36,297 nt of DNA, taken from positions 1 through 36,297 of the forward strand of contig PEYT01000021.1 of assembly GCA_002774285.1 (NCBI GenBank), read 5' to 3'. The notes below the pieces were generated by a model. The model had not been told where the DNA came from and did no database searches. It saw only the letters and a list, made by a program, of their open reading frames with translations. The position numbers were made by a program, and so were the translations under genes. Source of the DNA: a candidate division WWE3 bacterium CG08_land_8_20_14_0_20_40_13 (GTDB lineage Bacteria > Patescibacteriota > WWE3 > 0-14-0-20-40-13). Shown one piece after another: positions 1,977-23,484 of this stretch (its first letter is position 1; each line of letters opens with the position of its first letter).

Positions 1977-2063
1977 ATTAGCCACTTACCTCTTATTGAT
2001 GATTTTCTTCTTCTTAGTCACTAGCATTAAAAACTACCAATCAGATGGTACAATGTCAATAAC

Positions 2064-3071
2064 GTGGAAAACATAATAGAGACGACACGCAAAAAATACA
2101 ATCTTGTCCCAAAGCGGGAGTTTGACCAATTCTTTGCCACAGAAGAAACTTCGTTAAAGAAGGCCCAAATAATGCATCAGAAAACCGCGCTGGATGGGAA
2201 AGACATTTTGATTTTAGGCGACGATGACTTGGTGTCTTTGGCATGCTTTATGGTAGGGAAACCCAAAAGTGTTACTGTCGTAGAAGTGGACAAAGAAATT
2301 GCCAACGCCATTAAAGAAACCGCCACAGAACATTCTCTTCCCATAATAGTTGTCTTAAGTGACTTAAGGTACCTAAGGGACCTAAAGGGCTCCTTCCAAT
2401 CCGTCGCCTTTGACCCCCCATATACAGCGCCCGGAGTTACTCTGTTTTTAAAGAAAGCTTTAGAAAATTTATCATGCGGAGAAGATGCCAAAATATTCAT
2501 GTGTTTTGGCGCCGGACCAAAAAATGACGAGAAGTTTCTTAAAGTACAGGAAATAATTAGTGGATTTGATCTTGTAATCGAAGAGAAATTGGACGGGTTT
2601 AACAGGTACCACGGAGCCAGCGGAGTAAAAAACACAAGCTCCCTCTACATTTTAAGATCTACGGATAAAACCGACACTTACAATGTTTCCCAAGGAGAAA
2701 AAAACATCTACACCTTTCAAGTCCCTCCAAAATTAAGACTTCCCCATATTGAACATTATGCCATGATGTTTTTTGGTGTAGACAGAAACCTAACAACTGC
2801 AAAAAGGGAATTGGAAAACACAGTAACAAAATCCTGTGAGCATCTTAAAATAAAATGGGTCGCAAAAAGCCACAAAAATTTTAAAGGTGGGGGAATGACC
2901 TTAAACTTTGTTTTGGAGCAGTCTAATCTAAGCGTGCATACTTGGCCAGAACTTTCTATGATTCACCTTGATCTTTTAATCTTTTCCCCCCTTTTCGGAC
3001 GGGAGCTTATTGCGGAAACTTTTGCCAAAAACTTTAAAACGGAAACTTTTGAATTTAGGAGGCTGGAGTAA
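2064..3071 (+). CDS. Fusion protein: BpsA-like branched-chain polyamine synthase (DUF43 type) + S-adenosylmethionine decarboxylase (SpeD/SpeH)-like domain
   Basis: N-terminal half has LGDDDLVS and FDPPYT motifs typical of BpsA; C-terminal half has QSNLSVHTWPE matching the AdoMetDC cleavage-site motif (ESHxSIHTWPE). GTG start preceded by TACAAT. Confidence 0.8.
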   Translation: MENIIETTRKKYNLVPKREFDQFFATEETSLKKAQIMHQKTALDGKDILILGDDDLVSLACFMVGKPKSVTVVEVDKEIANAIKETATEHSLPIIVVLSDLRYLRDLKGSFQSVAFDPPYTAPGVTLFLKKALENLSCGEDAKIFMCFGAGPKNDEKFLKVQEIISGFDLVIEEKLDGFNRYHGASGVKNTSSLYILRSTDKTDTYNVSQGEKNIYTFQVPPKLRLPHIEHYAMMFFGVDRNLTTAKRELENTVTKSCEHLKIKWVAKSHKNFKGGGMTLNFVLEQSNLSVHTWPELSMIHLDLLIFSPLFGRELIAETFAKNFKTETFEFRRLE

Positions 3072-3077
3072 ATAATT

Positions 3078-5894
3078 CTATTTAAGAACAACCGTAATAT
3101 CCTTGTCGCTATCTAGGTTTACCGCAGGCTGTTCCTTGCCATTTATCGTAAGAGAAAACTGCCCATCTACTATCCCCGGCTGTTTTATTACCGCAAGTTG
3201 ATAAATTCCATTTGACCAATCTGTCTGATCTTTAGGATAAAGATAAGAAAATTCCAACGATACACTGTTTTTTGCCTTAAGTTCAAAGCTTGTCCCAAAT
3301 TCTGTTAAAGTGGCAATATCCACAACTTGAACTCCATTTAAAATATTTATTTCTTTACTATCTTCAAGATTCTTTAGAGTAGCAGTCTGCAATTTTGCGC
3401 CGCGGGGAACATATACACGCAGGAAATTGATATAGGAACCCACCGGCCAAGCGTTGGTTTCCCCAGTATGGGAGTAAGAAATAGTCGCCGTTCCCGAAAG
3501 ATACGAAGGATCTTTACTAGAGGTAACAAAGTAGGAGATTGATCGTGTAATAAAAGGATTGGTTTTTGTGCCTCCAAGATTAGCGTCCACCGCCATTAGA
3601 TAATCCGCATTTTTGGTATTGGCATTTTTCCCATCCCAGTTTAACTTTCCAAAAAAAGAGGATTCCGGAAAATACGCAATAATATGTTTACTGTTAAAGC
3701 TATCAGCGATACTTTTTAAAAATTCGGCGGGCTTAATGTTTTTTTCAAAACTTTGGGCAAGTATTTTATGGGCAAGATTTGTGGTAAAAGTCTTTTTTTG
3801 GGTCCCGCCTCCAGTAGTCTCATCTTGAAACGACTGCATTTTCTCGAGGATGTTTTGATCATTAATTTCAAGATCATACATGGAAAGATACACTTCCCCG
3901 ATTTCTTTAAGAAGAGTTGCTAAAAAGTTTGTGTCTACGGCTATTACTCCATCGTAAGTTTTCCCTGTCACATTAGTAAAAACATTTATAAGATCGCGTG
4001 CAGAACTTGGAAAGTCCGGGTTCCATAAAGAATCTCTAATATCAAAATCTTCCCTCTTTGAAAGGACTTTTACAGGTTCCGGCACGATAGAGGAAGAAAG
4101 TTTATCCGTTTTTACATCCACATTTTTTATATCATCTACCGAAATTGCCGTTATCTTTCCCTTATCAAGGGTAATATCCGCATAGGATTCCACTACACCG
4201 CCTGTGGCAGTTATTTGGTTTGATCTTTGAAAAAGAATCAAGTATTCCTTCTTATTTGTGTATCCCAAAATATTAGGGAGATCCGATAGAAGACCGGGAA
4301 TATATTCCATAACTCCCGCGTAACTGGAAAAATACCTAAGGGACAATCCCTTTAAAAGTGGTGAGCGGATCTTTGCAAATTGCGCAAGCATTTGTCCCAA
4401 ATGCTGATTACCGGAAAGGCTATCTTGCCGCCCCCCGGCAATATCCTCTTTAGACGCTATAAATGTTACCGAATTGGGACTTAGCGCAAAAGCAATCTTT
4501 TGTGACAACAAAAGAACATTCCCATACTCCCCTCGGTAAGATGACAGGTGATAATACCCGCTAACCAACGATTGAAAATCCTCCAAGAAACTCTCTTTAT
4601 TTAAAATGGCAAGCGGCGTCCGGATAATTTGGGGAATAAAATAAGCTCTTAAAAACGCTGATTCTGCAAGATTGTAATTGGCTCGGTTGGCAGAAATTGT
4701 GCCCGTGGCAAGATTGGCAAAAAAATAAAAGGCGGGAAATATCGCAATAAAAACCAAGGATCCTAAGATTGAGAAAAGCCAATCTCCTGTTTTTTTCTTA
4801 TTCCTATCTTTCTCATCTATCCCTTCTTTTCCCTCTAATCCGCCTCCTCCCTCTAACCCCCCTATTGTTTTAATCGGGGCAAGATCCCTTTTCCACCGAA
4901 AAATTCTTGGAACTTTATAGCTTTCTTCCTTTAAGAGATCTATCTTAACTGTCTCTTTTGGCGGCTTGGTGTTATTAAAATAACCAAGTTGTGTAAAGGT
5001 ATCGAGCACCGCGTCTTTTAATGAGAATTTCGCCTTCCAAGAAAGCGAGGAGCATCCGCTTGTTAGTAATTCCTCTTGATCGGCAAAAATTGGCGCGTCC
5101 GGACGGGGCAAAAATTTAATCTCCAACCCCCTTCTCGCAATACCTTTTAAAAGGTAAGCAAATTCTATTTCCGCAACGGGCGTAGTATTTGCTACCGGAA
5201 TTATCTTTCCTAAAACTTCTTCTACCACTGCGCATTTGGATAGCGCTTCCACAGCGTCGTGAATGTATATAGCGAAATGTTTTTGCAAACCGTTGCCAAA
5301 AACCCTTATAGGAAGATTGTCCAAAGCATCCTTTAGCATCTCCTCAATAGGGTTCTGGGATAAAAAGTCCATTCCGGGACCAAACACATCACCAAGACGG
5401 CAGACACACACCTTTGCTCCATAGGCTTTGCGGTGTTTCCAACAAACCGCCTCAAGATACCTCCGGCTTTCTATTTGGGAAAATTTGGCTTCGTCGGCTT
5501 CGGATGTTCCAAAATAATTTTCAACACTTCCCGCCGAAACCACCCCTTGATAGACATTAAGATGGGATATTAAAACAACTTTTGCACCGTTTTTAACGGC
5601 ATAGTCTAAACAAATTTTTAGATTTACGGGGTCATTTCCATTGTCGATAAATTTCTCCGGAAAAAAATAGATTACCCCTATGTCTTTTTTCTCTTTAAAA
5701 GATTTTTCAAAATTGTCCGAGGGGGCAAAAGAGAAGTTTGGATCGTTTTTAAGAGAGGCCAATTTTACGACGTCTATTCCTCCCAAAGTTCCGCTTAAAA
5801 TTACCTTATATCCATCCAGAAGAAGTCTTTTTGCAAGACTGCGGGCTGTAAAATTAAGACCATTGACGATATACACCGTTTTTTCCGGGGGCAT
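3078..5894 (-). CDS. NAD-dependent epimerase/dehydratase (SDR) domain fused through a TM segment to a DUF4012 domain
   Basis: N-terminal TVYIVNGLNFTARSLAKRLLLDGYKVILSG (atypical SDR Rossmann) then TM (WLFSILGSLVFIAIFPAFYFFANLA) and long DUF4012-like region (KEYLILFQRSNQITATGGVVESYADITLDKGKI). Confidence 0.75.
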   Translation of the reverse strand: MPPEKTVYIVNGLNFTARSLAKRLLLDGYKVILSGTLGGIDVVKLASLKNDPNFSFAPSDNFEKSFKEKKDIGVIYFFPEKFIDNGNDPVNLKICLDYAVKNGAKVVLISHLNVYQGVVSAGSVENYFGTSEADEAKFSQIESRRYLEAVCWKHRKAYGAKVCVCRLGDVFGPGMDFLSQNPIEEMLKDALDNLPIRVFGNGLQKHFAIYIHDAVEALSKCAVVEEVLGKIIPVANTTPVAEIEFAYLLKGIARRGLEIKFLPRPDAPIFADQEELLTSGCSSLSWKAKFSLKDAVLDTFTQLGYFNNTKPPKETVKIDLLKEESYKVPRIFRWKRDLAPIKTIGGLEGGGGLEGKEGIDEKDRNKKKTGDWLFSILGSLVFIAIFPAFYFFANLATGTISANRANYNLAESAFLRAYFIPQIIRTPLAILNKESFLEDFQSLVSGYYHLSSYRGEYGNVLLLSQKIAFALSPNSVTFIASKEDIAGGRQDSLSGNQHLGQMLAQFAKIRSPLLKGLSLRYFSSYAGVMEYIPGLLSDLPNILGYTNKKEYLILFQRSNQITATGGVVESYADITLDKGKITAISVDDIKNVDVKTDKLSSSIVPEPVKVLSKREDFDIRDSLWNPDFPSSARDLINVFTNVTGKTYDGVIAVDTNFLATLLKEIGEVYLSMYDLEINDQNILEKMQSFQDETTGGGTQKKTFTTNLAHKILAQSFEKNIKPAEFLKSIADSFNSKHIIAYFPESSFFGKLNWDGKNANTKNADYLMAVDANLGGTKTNPFITRSISYFVTSSKDPSYLSGTATISYSHTGETNAWPVGSYINFLRVYVPRGAKLQTATLKNLEDSKEINILNGVQVVDIATLTEFGTSFELKAKNSVSLEFSYLYPKDQTDWSNGIYQLAVIKQPGIVDGQFSLTINGKEQPAVNLDSDKDITVVLK

Positions 5895-14995: not shown

Positions 14996-17839
14996 ATGGA
15001 TGAACTCTCCCTAAATACCGGACAAAAAGAAGCCGTGGATTATAAAGATGGGCCTTTGCTAATCGTTGCCGGAGCAGGTACCGGAAAAACGCGTGTTATA
15101 ACGGAAAAAATCCGGCGCCTTATACAAGAGAACCATATTCCGCCACGGGAAATTCTTGCCGTTACTTTTACCGACAAGGCGGCGGGAGAAATGCTTTCAA
15201 GAATCGGTGATGTGATGCCTCTTGGGTACGAAGAACCATCTGTTTGCACATTTCACAAATTTTCCGAAATGGTATTAAAAGACCGCGGAATAGAGATTGG
15301 TCTTGATCCCACATTTAACATTTTGTCGGCAAGCGATGCCTACCGGCTTTTTAAAAAAAATCTTTTTAAATTTAAACTTAAATATTTCCGCCCCCTCGGA
15401 AATCCCAATAAATTTATTTTGGCAATTCTTAAGTTTTTTTCTAGGCTTCAAGACGAAGTGGTAACACCTTTAGAATTTTCTCAGTTTGTAGAAAAGCAGG
15501 AGGAGGATAAGGAAAAACTAACGGAATTAGCAGAGGCCTATACCACATACACGCAAATTAAATTGGATAACTCGCTTATGGATTTTGGCGATCTCCTTAA
15601 CTGGTCGCTACAGCTTTTTAAAACTAGACCCGTAATTCTTAGAGAATATCAAACACGGTTTAAACATATTTTTGTGGACGAATTTCAGGACACTAACTGG
15701 GCGCAGTACGAGCTTATTAAAATGCTTGCAGATCCCGTGTTAAATCCTCTTCTTACAGTAGTTGGCGATGATAATCAAAGCATCTACAAGTTTCGCGGCG
15801 CCGCAATCTCTAACATCATAAATTTTCAAAGGGATTATCCAAAAGCCCGCCTTGTAATTTTGGACCAAAACTACCGCAGTTTCCAGGACATTCTGGACGC
15901 CAGTTATCGCCTTATAAAAAACAACGACCCTGATACTTTGGAGGCCAGACTTGGCATAAGTAAAAAACTTACCTCTCAAAAAAAGGCTCCGCAAACGCCA
16001 AGCATTGTTATTAAAACTCTGGATAACGAAAGCGATGAAGCGGAGTTTGTGATTTCTAATATCATAAAACTTATGAAGCAAGATCCCAATCTTGCTTTTA
16101 AAGATTTCGCTATATTGGCAAGGGCTAATACCCATCTGGATCCCGTAACCGCAACACTGCGCCGACACCTGATCCCTTACCAAATTGTGGGAAACCGCGG
16201 CCTTTTTGATACGGCGGAAATCCGCGCGCTTTTATCATTTTTAAGGTTTGTGGTAGATACCGGCAACAATGTGGCATTTTACGATCTTATGTCTAGTAGT
16301 TTCTTGGACATGGCCCCGCTAAAAATTCTTGAGATTCTAAAAAAATCCAAGGCAAAAAAGATTTCTCTTTGGGAATCTTTTGTGGAGGACCCTTTGCTTA
16401 CAGTGCCCGCAAAAATTTTAAAGGGGTCGCTTAATGACGCCCCAAAAGAAGCTGTCAGCAAAATTCTTTTTGATTTTATTACAAAGACAGGATGGGTAGA
16501 AAATGTTATTAAAGAAGAATCGCTAACTAACAAACTTAAGATTGATAATCTAAATCGCTTTTTTAAATTTATTAAAGAATTTGAAAGCAGAGAAAAGTTA
16601 AATTTTGCCCCCGGTTTTGTGGAGTACTTGGATTTGGCCATGGAGGCTGGGGAAAACCCCGCGCAGGCGCAAATTGAAGATATAGACACTGTTAATTTGT
16701 TAACAGTCCACGGAGCCAAGGGGCTGGAATTTCCCGTGGTATTTTTAATATCTGTTACAAGCGACCGCTTTCCCACAAGAAACCGCGGAGATGTAATAGA
16801 AATTCCAGACGCTCTTATAAAAGAAACACTGCCCACCGGCGACTATCATCTGGAAGAAGAGCGCCGACTTTTTTATGTTGGAGCAACACGCGCAAAAGAC
16901 AAATTATTTATCTCCTTCGCCAAAAGCTACGGAGGCACAAAAGAAAAACGACCGTCGGGATTCATTAATGAACTAAAAATTGAGACGGAGAAAAAGTTGG
17001 AGGAAAATCAAAAAGAGAACCAAAGGTCGGGACAGCTAAATTTTCTTTTAATAACACCAAGAGAACTATCAAAATTACCGAAAACGGTGGTTAAAAAAGC
17101 GCTGGAAGTACCCTTTGTCAGTTTTAGCCAATTAGATATGTTTAAAACCTGCCCTCTTCAGTACAAGTACCGGTATATTTTGCAGATTCAAACCCCACCA
17201 AATCACGCCTTTACTTTTGGACAAAGCATTCATAACACTCTCCGCGATTTTGAAAGGATGGCAATTTTAAACAAAGATAAAGCTACTCTGGAAGAACTGT
17301 TAAAAATCTACGAAAATAATTTCGATCCTTCGGGTTATGAGTCCAAGGAACACCGCGAAAAACGATTTGAGCAAGGAAAGGATTACTTAAAGACTTATTT
17401 TGAAAAGGGACGAAAGCTTTTGGGGAATCCTAAATTTATCGAAGAAAAATTCCGGATGCTGATTGACGGAACACCCTTTGTGGGGGTAATTGACCGCGTG
17501 GACGAAACGGATGAAGGAGTTGTGATTGTGGACTATAAAACCGGCGAAGCACGGGAACAGGAAAAAGTGGATAAAGACGCGCAATTAACCGCCTATGCAA
17601 TAGCGGCAAAAGAGGTTTTAAAACTTAACCCCGTAAAGCTTTGTCTTTACTTTTTTGAAGATGCCGAAATTGTGGCGACAACAAGAGATGAACACGATCT
17701 TATCGTGGCAAAAAAGGATATCGCAGAAACGGTAGGTAAAATTAAAGAAGGGGAATTTCCAGCTAAAGTTGGTCCCCTTTGCAAGTACTGCAGTTATAAC
17801 TCCATCTGCCCAGCATACAAGAACTATCTTAATATTTAA
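14996..17839 (+). CDS. UvrD/PcrA-like SF1 helicase fused to PD-(D/E)XK nuclease with Cys cluster
   Basis: LNTGQKEAVDYKDGPLLIVAGAGTGKT, VDEFQDTN, VGDDNQSIYKFRGA, VHGAKGLEFPVV, ATRAKDKLF; C-terminus VIVDYKTG and CKYCSYNSICP. Confidence 0.93.
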   Translation: MDELSLNTGQKEAVDYKDGPLLIVAGAGTGKTRVITEKIRRLIQENHIPPREILAVTFTDKAAGEMLSRIGDVMPLGYEEPSVCTFHKFSEMVLKDRGIEIGLDPTFNILSASDAYRLFKKNLFKFKLKYFRPLGNPNKFILAILKFFSRLQDEVVTPLEFSQFVEKQEEDKEKLTELAEAYTTYTQIKLDNSLMDFGDLLNWSLQLFKTRPVILREYQTRFKHIFVDEFQDTNWAQYELIKMLADPVLNPLLTVVGDDNQSIYKFRGAAISNIINFQRDYPKARLVILDQNYRSFQDILDASYRLIKNNDPDTLEARLGISKKLTSQKKAPQTPSIVIKTLDNESDEAEFVISNIIKLMKQDPNLAFKDFAILARANTHLDPVTATLRRHLIPYQIVGNRGLFDTAEIRALLSFLRFVVDTGNNVAFYDLMSSSFLDMAPLKILEILKKSKAKKISLWESFVEDPLLTVPAKILKGSLNDAPKEAVSKILFDFITKTGWVENVIKEESLTNKLKIDNLNRFFKFIKEFESREKLNFAPGFVEYLDLAMEAGENPAQAQIEDIDTVNLLTVHGAKGLEFPVVFLISVTSDRFPTRNRGDVIEIPDALIKETLPTGDYHLEEERRLFYVGATRAKDKLFISFAKSYGGTKEKRPSGFINELKIETEKKLEENQKENQRSGQLNFLLITPRELSKLPKTVVKKALEVPFVSFSQLDMFKTCPLQYKYRYILQIQTPPNHAFTFGQSIHNTLRDFERMAILNKDKATLEELLKIYENNFDPSGYESKEHREKRFEQGKDYLKTYFEKGRKLLGNPKFIEEKFRMLIDGTPFVGVIDRVDETDEGVVIVDYKTGEAREQEKVDKDAQLTAYAIAAKEVLKLNPVKLCLYFFEDAEIVATTRDEHDLIVAKKDIAETVGKIKEGEFPAKVGPLCKYCSYNSICPAYKNYLNI

Positions 17840-22419: not shown

Positions 22420-23484
22420 TTAAATATACCCGGAAATGTATGTTTTTAAATTCTCTTTTGTAATAATGACTTTTTTAACTTTTTCTTCCACAATGGCCTT
22501 AGCGGTTTTTCTGGCAATACCTTCCAAAATTCTCTTTAGACTTCTAATACCGCTATCAAATCCTAACGGTCTTATAATATAAGGCCAAAGACTTTCCTCA
22601 ATTACAAGCTCTTCCGCTGAAAGGCCGCATTCTCTACGGACTCTGGGCAGTAAAAAGTCTCGCGCAATTCCTTCTTTTTCTATGTCGGTATAAGAAGGCA
22701 TGCTAATAACTTCCAACCTATCCATAAGAGCCGCCGAAAACGACCCTGTGTTGTTAGCGCTTACAATAAACATAACTTGGGAAAGATCCAAAGGATAGTC
22801 TATGTAATGATCTCTAAATTTTGTGTTTTGCTCCGGATCCAAAATTTCCAAAAGAACCGCCATAAAATCGCTCCTAAGACCCTTCTCCCCGCTCACCTTA
22901 TCCATCTCGTCAAGAAGCACCAACGGGTTAAATGATTTTGTGCGGGCAAGCGCCTTTACAATTTGCCCGGGCTCCGATCCCGGATCCGAACTGTTTCTTC
23001 CTCTAAGTTCCAAGGTTGATCCAAGCGCCCCAAGAGATATTCTAATAAATTTACGGCCCAAGGCTTCGGCAATAGATTCCGCCATTGTTGTTTTTCCGGT
23101 GCCTTGCAACCCCACCAAACATAAAATAGGAGAGTGTTCTTCCGAAATCTTTCCTCTTTGAGTTAAAAGATTCCGCACGGCAAGATATTCCATAACGCGC
23201 TCTTTTACCCCCTCCAAACCATAATGATTTTTATCCAAAACCATTTTGGCATTTGGAAGATCCAAATTATCGTTTGTCGCGACCTGCCATGGAATTTGGG
23301 TAATCCAATCTATATACCTGCTTAAAATCTCATACTCGCTACTGTAACTTCCAAGGTTTGCCATGCGGTTAAGCCTTTCCAACATCTGCTCTACCCGGCT
23401 TTTTAACTCTTCTGGAGTTTTTGCAGTGGAAACTCTTTCTTTAAGGCTTACGAGCTCACGAAATAGATATTCTTCTTTGGGCAT
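22420..23484 (-). CDS. Lon-like AAA+ ATPase lacking both LAN N-domain and C-terminal protease domain
   Basis: DKNHYGLEGVKERVMEYLAV, GLQGTGKTT (Walker A), LVLLDEMDKV (Walker B), LDPEQNTKFRDHYIDYPLDLSQVMFIVSAN; stops after GIRSLKRILEGIARKTAKAIVEEKVKK... Confidence 0.92.
   Translation of the reverse strand: MPKEEYLFRELVSLKERVSTAKTPEELKSRVEQMLERLNRMANLGSYSSEYEILSRYIDWITQIPWQVATNDNLDLPNAKMVLDKNHYGLEGVKERVMEYLAVRNLLTQRGKISEEHSPILCLVGLQGTGKTTMAESIAEALGRKFIRISLGALGSTLELRGRNSSDPGSEPGQIVKALARTKSFNPLVLLDEMDKVSGEKGLRSDFMAVLLEILDPEQNTKFRDHYIDYPLDLSQVMFIVSANNTGSFSAALMDRLEVISMPSYTDIEKEGIARDFLLPRVRRECGLSAEELVIEESLWPYIIRPLGFDSGIRSLKRILEGIARKTAKAIVEEKVKKVIITKENLKTYISGYI

Follow-up and report, generated by a model that had tools for sequence, protein, structure and literature searches.

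A shortened, probably impaired member of a family of proteins joining a BpsA-type aminopropyltransferase to an AdoMet decarboxylase-type domain in a WWE3 bacterium

Described relatives and the fused reading frame

The closest described relative of the first half of this protein is BpsA, N4-bis(aminopropyl)spermidine synthase (EC 2.5.1.128; Thermococcus kodakarensis, 5xnc; Thermus thermophilus, 6j27). In the Thermococcus enzyme, a GDDD motif that includes Asp159 and Asp160 binds decarboxylated AdoMet (dcAdoMet), Asp225 and Tyr290 lie near the acceptor amine, and a C-terminal acidic cluster carries the aminopropyl group (PMC12979288); a 2026 review describes BpsA as strikingly restricted to thermophilic lineages (PMC12979288). 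The second half is related to class 1b AdoMet decarboxylases (AdoMetDC, SpeD), represented by the Thermotoga maritima enzyme (1tlu), and to SpeDC and SpeDA, the pyruvoyl-dependent ornithine and arginine decarboxylases that derive from SpeD, have a homologous domain and pyruvoyl chemistry, and also occur in candidate phyla (PMC10407285). In that work, (i) SpeDC has four diagnostic residues, Gln, Thr, Phe, and Tyr (Fig. 8 of PMC10407285); (ii) SpeDA has lost a proline that is fully conserved in AdoMetDC; and (iii) SpeD, SpeDA, and SpeDC are all expected by the authors to keep Ser63, His68, and Cys83.

AdoMetDC fusions that have already been published have either a SpeE-type transferase or SpeDC as the partner (PMC11107197, PMC10407285). 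A proven analogue is the Candidatus Pelagibacter AdoMetDC-aminopropyltransferase fusion, which works in Escherichia coli and likewise lets a single protein make dcAdoMet and transfer its aminopropyl group; its AdoMetDC domain is N-terminal, whereas the protein described here carries that domain at the C-terminal end of a BpsA-type transferase (PMC11107197). Among openly licensed papers, we found no publication on a BpsA-AdoMetDC fusion.

The original prediction for the window (the whole 36,297-nucleotide stretch of WWE3 DNA that was analyzed) placed LGDDDLVS, FDPPYT, and EQSNLSVHTWPE within one reading frame, and interpreted that frame as a BpsA-type half followed by an AdoMetDC-type half. All three do lie in a single open frame of 335 aa, and an HMM check found both domains above their Pfam cut-offs. 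The features, in window coordinates, are as follows:

2064..3071, +, whole ORF, BpsA-type aminopropyltransferase/AdoMetDC-type fusion, 335 aa, GTG start at 2064, stop at 3071
2049..2054, +, TACAAT, promoter -10-like box 9 nt 5' of the GTG, proposed from the sequence
2109..2675, +, BpsA_C domain (PF01861), aa 16-204, by Pfam and by fold match to 2qm3/5xnc
2217..2228, +, GDDD motif, aa 52-55, equivalent by alignment to Thermococcus BpsA Gly157-Asp160, the dcAdoMet site (PMC12979288)
2412..2426, +, DPPYT motif, aa 117-121, with Asp117 equivalent by alignment to Thermococcus BpsA Asp225
2754..3065, +, AdoMet_dc domain (PF02675), aa 231-334, by Pfam and by fold match to 1vr7/1tlu
2922..2924, +, Ser287, serine predicted to form the pyruvoyl group on self-cleavage (T. 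maritima Ser63 by alignment), flanked by Gln286 and Asn288
2937..2939, +, His292 (T. maritima His68 by alignment)
2982..2984, +, Phe307 (TTT) at the catalytic cysteine position (T. maritima Cys83 by alignment), which is Cys in 23/23 other aligned fusions

With curated Pfam cut-offs, BpsA_C scored 116.1 bits (2e-33; cut-off 27) and AdoMet_dc 51.1 bits (2e-13; cut-off 25), whereas the NCBIfam equivalog model for AdoMetDC (TIGR03330) gave 43.6 bits, below its cut-off of 75.65. A sequence search of solved structures matched the first half to BpsA (2qm3, 5xnc) and the second to class 1b AdoMetDC. The predicted structure (mean pLDDT 87.9, pTM 0.66), in which each half is confident, matched BpsA 2qm3/5xnc (E 1e-17 to 1e-15) and T. 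maritima AdoMetDC 1vr7/1tlu (∼2e-8 to 5e-8; TM over target 0.77-0.79, with 0.79 for 1tlu) in Foldseek, so that the fold of both halves agrees with the domain assignment.

Donor, acceptor, and decarboxylase sites

In its BpsA half, the window protein keeps GDDD at G52-D55 together with the Asp225 and Tyr290 equivalents (Asp117 and Tyr182 by alignment). In place of the DPPET or DPVET of BpsA, however, DPPYT is found in 24/24 aligned fusions. The Glu259 equivalent is absent from the window protein, the LTRxESS region being replaced across the DPPYT subfamily in our alignment, and no acidic C-terminal cluster was seen at aa 190-230, where the BpsA carrier tail gives way to the AdoMetDC domain. Because features tied to the branching mechanism of BpsA (DPPET, Glu259, and the acidic tail) are absent, branched polyamine products are unproven and, judging from the residues, should not be assumed. 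While BpsA is a thermophile enzyme, the fusions reside in non-thermophile lineages, and BpsA relatives with a different acceptor site live in groundwater WWE3 bacteria, Streptomyces, and Erysipelothrix. We tentatively entertain a joint reading in which the DPPYT branch, non-thermophilic and repeatedly fused to AdoMetDC, might be an aminopropyltransferase in its own right, whose product or acceptor is new, rather than a source of the thermophile branched polyamines, and in which the WWE3 decarboxylase half might work with an altered (xSN) active site.

Residues of the AdoMetDC half were mapped by alignment with class 1b AdoMetDC, using T. maritima numbering that follows PMC10407285 in part; on it, Gln286, Asn288, and Phe307 occupy the Glu62, His64, and Cys83 positions. 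The alignment retained the predicted pyruvoyl serine and processing histidine as Ser287 and His292, and it returned the same Cys83-to-Phe replacement that had been proposed from an ungapped reading. The fold, the self-cleavage serine, His68, and HTWPE are shared with class 1b AdoMetDC, whereas the class 1b motif ESH reads xSN in the WWE3 fusions. The claim of an altered active site holds for the residues themselves, but its two components differ in reach. The xSN motif is typical of the whole WWE3 clade, with Asn, Ser, Gln, or Thr before the serine and Asn after it in nearly all; the Cys-to-Phe change is private to the window copy, the single exception among 24 aligned fusions. The original prediction recognized neither of these two points, nor the loss of the N-terminal BpsA domain. 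Elsewhere, the motif is QSH in the separate Shapirobacteria partners and ESH in Erysipelothrix and Anaerolineae. Other BpsA-linked SpeD proteins also lack Cys83, with Tyr in Streptomyces, Ser in four loci (L121, L134, L135, and L029), and Gly in one (L028), so loss of the cysteine need not mean loss of function. In the aligned WWE3 fusions, the last residue is Glu in nearly all (..IE, ..VE, or ..LE). At L104 and other Streptomyces loci, bpsA (DPPYT) stands beside an opposite-strand speD that has Tyr at the Cys83 position and Ala at the Glu62 position.

Distribution and genomic setting of the fusion

Full-length, one-frame fusions were present in 25 further genomes of the same class (26 including the window genome). 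In an alignment-based scan, named records with the fusion belonged mostly to candidate division WWE3, one of them being the complete genome RAAC2_WWE3_1 (L074). One-frame fusions also occurred in one Shapirobacteria genome (L085), in Erysipelothrix inopinata/E. anatis (L099, L128), and in Anaerolineae (L127, L133). The Erysipelothrix and Anaerolineae proteins have the same domain order, carry a canonical ESH..C, and are apparently independent fusions; the two of them that were checked (L099 and L127) pass the NCBIfam AdoMetDC equivalog cut-off. Recurrence in independent genomes excluded an assembly artefact as the source of the fusion, which had been named as a possible refutation. On other branches, including Shapirobacteria, Woesebacteria, Chisholmbacteria, and Bipolaricaulota, bpsA and speD are separate but neighboring genes. 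The fused state requires four changes on the tree of the BpsA half and four on that of the AdoMetDC half, a count that is blind to gain versus loss; since each fused group sits among unfused ones, four gains are the simplest reading, and the fusion appears, from these trees, to have arisen about four separate times. Recurrent fusion and bpsA/speD adjacency together support a two-step polyamine synthase as the reading of the family, which is widespread and uncharacterized. Repeated fusion to AdoMetDC amounts to a testable prediction of function and product, for which cultured hosts exist (Erysipelothrix, Streptomyces).

Single-protein scans of genome and viral contig collections returned no relatives, whereas the alignment scan did recover them; a phage collection and a plasmid collection each gave one partial BpsA-like match. 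MT839461.1, a 4.3-kb faecal "Bacteriophage sp." record, contains a BpsA-like stretch. In Anaerolineae, a second, DPPET-type bpsA-like frame lies directly 3' of the fused gene (L127 5302-6756; L133 3825-4934).

We surveyed 45 genomes of the class for co-occurring polyamine and AdoMet genes, comparing the lists by hand. AdoMet_dc was found in 33/45, BpsA_C above cut-off in 33/45, and both in 30/45, with BpsA_C only in three genomes (G008, G010, and G013) and AdoMet_dc only in three (G011, G020, and G037), of which G020 and G037 show a SpeDC-like motif in that domain. Bacterial MetK occurred in 3/45 genomes, archaeal-type AdoMet synthetase in 2/45 (including the sister genome, G001), PLP-type ODC/ADC in 2/45, and the arginase family in 1/45. 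Searches of the window genome (∼92% complete) for ODC (PF02784), the arginase family (PF00491), and AdoMet synthetase (PF02773, PF01941) were all negative, so AdoMet and the acceptor would have to come from outside or from unrecognized enzymes. Nor does this genome contain a second AdoMet_dc domain. SpeE enzymes carry a GGGDG motif, and the sole Spermine_synth-like ORF of the window genome reads GIAGGT at that position. Polyamine synthesis that depends on dcAdoMet may, in WWE3, be encoded entirely by the fused gene. Separate SpeDC-like genes (QESHISIHTF..DVYTC or close variants) occur in the same class at L031-L034 and L036, with L031 beside an arginase-family gene.

The window copy and competing readings

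The window protein lacks the N-terminal BpsA domain (∼100 aa) that is present in aligned full-length relatives and in solved BpsA, which the family profile matches from its first position. A frameshifted N-terminal domain just upstream was ruled out, as tblastn with the N-terminal regions of eight relatives gave only matches running into the known ORF and chance-level ones; no long direct repeat that could explain the deletion was seen in 1900-2300. The N-terminus, VENII, resembles the starts of relatives (for example, MENIV and MEKII), which makes it plausible that an internal deletion, in frame, removed the domain but spared promoter and start. A -10-like box stands 6-9 nt 5' of the start codon in most of 23 loci examined, and such closeness, in the window as in most relatives, suggests a leaderless transcript for the fusion genes.

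Changes found only in the window copy, at positions otherwise conserved, include Cys307Phe, Ser151Gly, Pro155Asp, Glu186Ser, Ser187Gly, Gly189Lys, Lys235Met, and His261Leu. The BpsA half breaks 7/47 conserved columns (family median 3.4%) and is second only to L026, whereas the AdoMetDC half breaks 4/21, against 6/21 in its nearest relative (the sister sequence L002). On the AdoMetDC-half tree, the window protein and L002 have end branches of comparable length (0.69 and 0.73), which confines the sign of faster decay to the BpsA half. The frame is nonetheless intact over 335 codons, and differences from the nearest relative are more frequent at third than at first and second positions, which points to a gene kept as protein over the long term; dS is saturated except in the AdoMetDC part, leaving dN/dS of little use.

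Our main reading, to which we assign a probability of roughly 0.55, is that the window ORF belongs to a family of fused enzymes that would carry out aminopropyl transfer in two steps, and that it is a shortened and probably impaired copy. Against it stand the intact frame, the AdoMetDC half that has decayed no faster than that of L002, the loss of Cys83 in other BpsA-linked SpeD proteins, and the negative searches for AdoMet synthetase, ODC, and arginase-family genes in the window genome; nor is a measured activity known to us for a fusion of this kind. In intact members, we infer, the C-terminal domain would (i) cleave itself before the conserved serine and form a pyruvoyl group and (ii) decarboxylate AdoMet to dcAdoMet, which (iii) the BpsA-type domain would bind through GDDD before (iv) the aminopropyl group is moved to an acceptor amine, for which a polyamine, imported or made elsewhere, is the likeliest candidate. 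The window copy may still fold and cleave, since it retains GDDD as well as the self-cleavage serine and histidine; weak or no decarboxylation is nevertheless likeliest, because the catalytic cysteine, the N-terminal BpsA domain, and several BpsA-side motifs are lost. From these residue changes, impairment appears more likely than activity. The self-contained two-step synthase originally proposed is the best reading of the family but is weakened for the window copy, which would offer a natural example of part loss in an enzyme of this type.

It is unlikely that the window copy is fully active, with the phenylalanine explained by an error in sequencing or assembly or by rare strain variation, or else offset by another proton donor. 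TTT is one base from the Cys codon TGT, the frame is intact, and Tyr, Ser, or Gly at the same site in other BpsA-linked SpeD proteins would be compatible with activity, but Cys is otherwise invariant in the aligned fusions, and the phenylalanine does not stand alone, as the N-terminal domain and several invariant or nearly invariant motifs are changed too. Improbable as well is a C-terminal domain serving as a non-catalytic scaffold or regulator, with the BpsA half working alone on dcAdoMet from host or surroundings; to our knowledge, dcAdoMet uptake is not an established process. The retention of GDDD and DPPYT beside a lost catalytic cysteine would suit a scaffold, and degraded SpeD domains retained in fusions have a precedent in Victivallis vadensis (PMC10407285), yet it is the BpsA half that has more broken conserved columns than the family norm, and the self-cleavage serine and histidine are kept.

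A switch of the C-terminal domain to ornithine or arginine, as in SpeDC or SpeDA, had been offered as the alternative to a two-step synthase and is now very doubtful. The altered Glu62 and His64 positions, the negative search for a PLP-type ODC/ADC in the window genome, and the occurrence of SpeDC genes in candidate-phyla bacteria (PMC10407285) speak for it. The cysteine loss is no pointer to such a switch, because Ser63, His68, and Cys83 are expected to be conserved in all three enzyme types, and linkage to an aminopropyltransferase calls for dcAdoMet. The reading is weakened further because nearly all fusions retain HTWPE, in contrast to the separate SpeDC-like genes of the class, whose signature differs (QESHISIHTF..DVYTCK or close variants, that is, HTF with DVYTC or DVYSC). 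The fusions thus keep HTW and lack HTF/VYTC, with some uncertainty as to the exact diagnostic SpeDC positions, and they keep the proline of HTWPE, which may or may not be the AdoMetDC proline lost in SpeDA. It is hardly to be expected, finally, that the BpsA half is no polyamine synthase and aminopropylates another amine, for example in nucleic acid. In its favor, DPPY is similar to motif IV of adenine-N6 methyltransferases, METTL5 and PH1948 are further fold matches, and the Glu259 and acidic tail of polyamine-branching BpsA are missing; the fold, however, is common to Rossmann methyltransferases generally, BpsA itself is the nearest structure, and the protein retains GDDD, the dcAdoMet motif.

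Elsewhere in the window are genes for a 938-aa protein in which an NAD-epimerase domain is fused to DUF4012 (3078-5894, -), a UvrD-type helicase fused to a PD-(D/E)XK nuclease domain (14996-17839, +), and a 354-aa Lon-type AAA+ ATPase with a Lon lid, in which no Lon N-terminal or protease domain was found (22420-23484, -).
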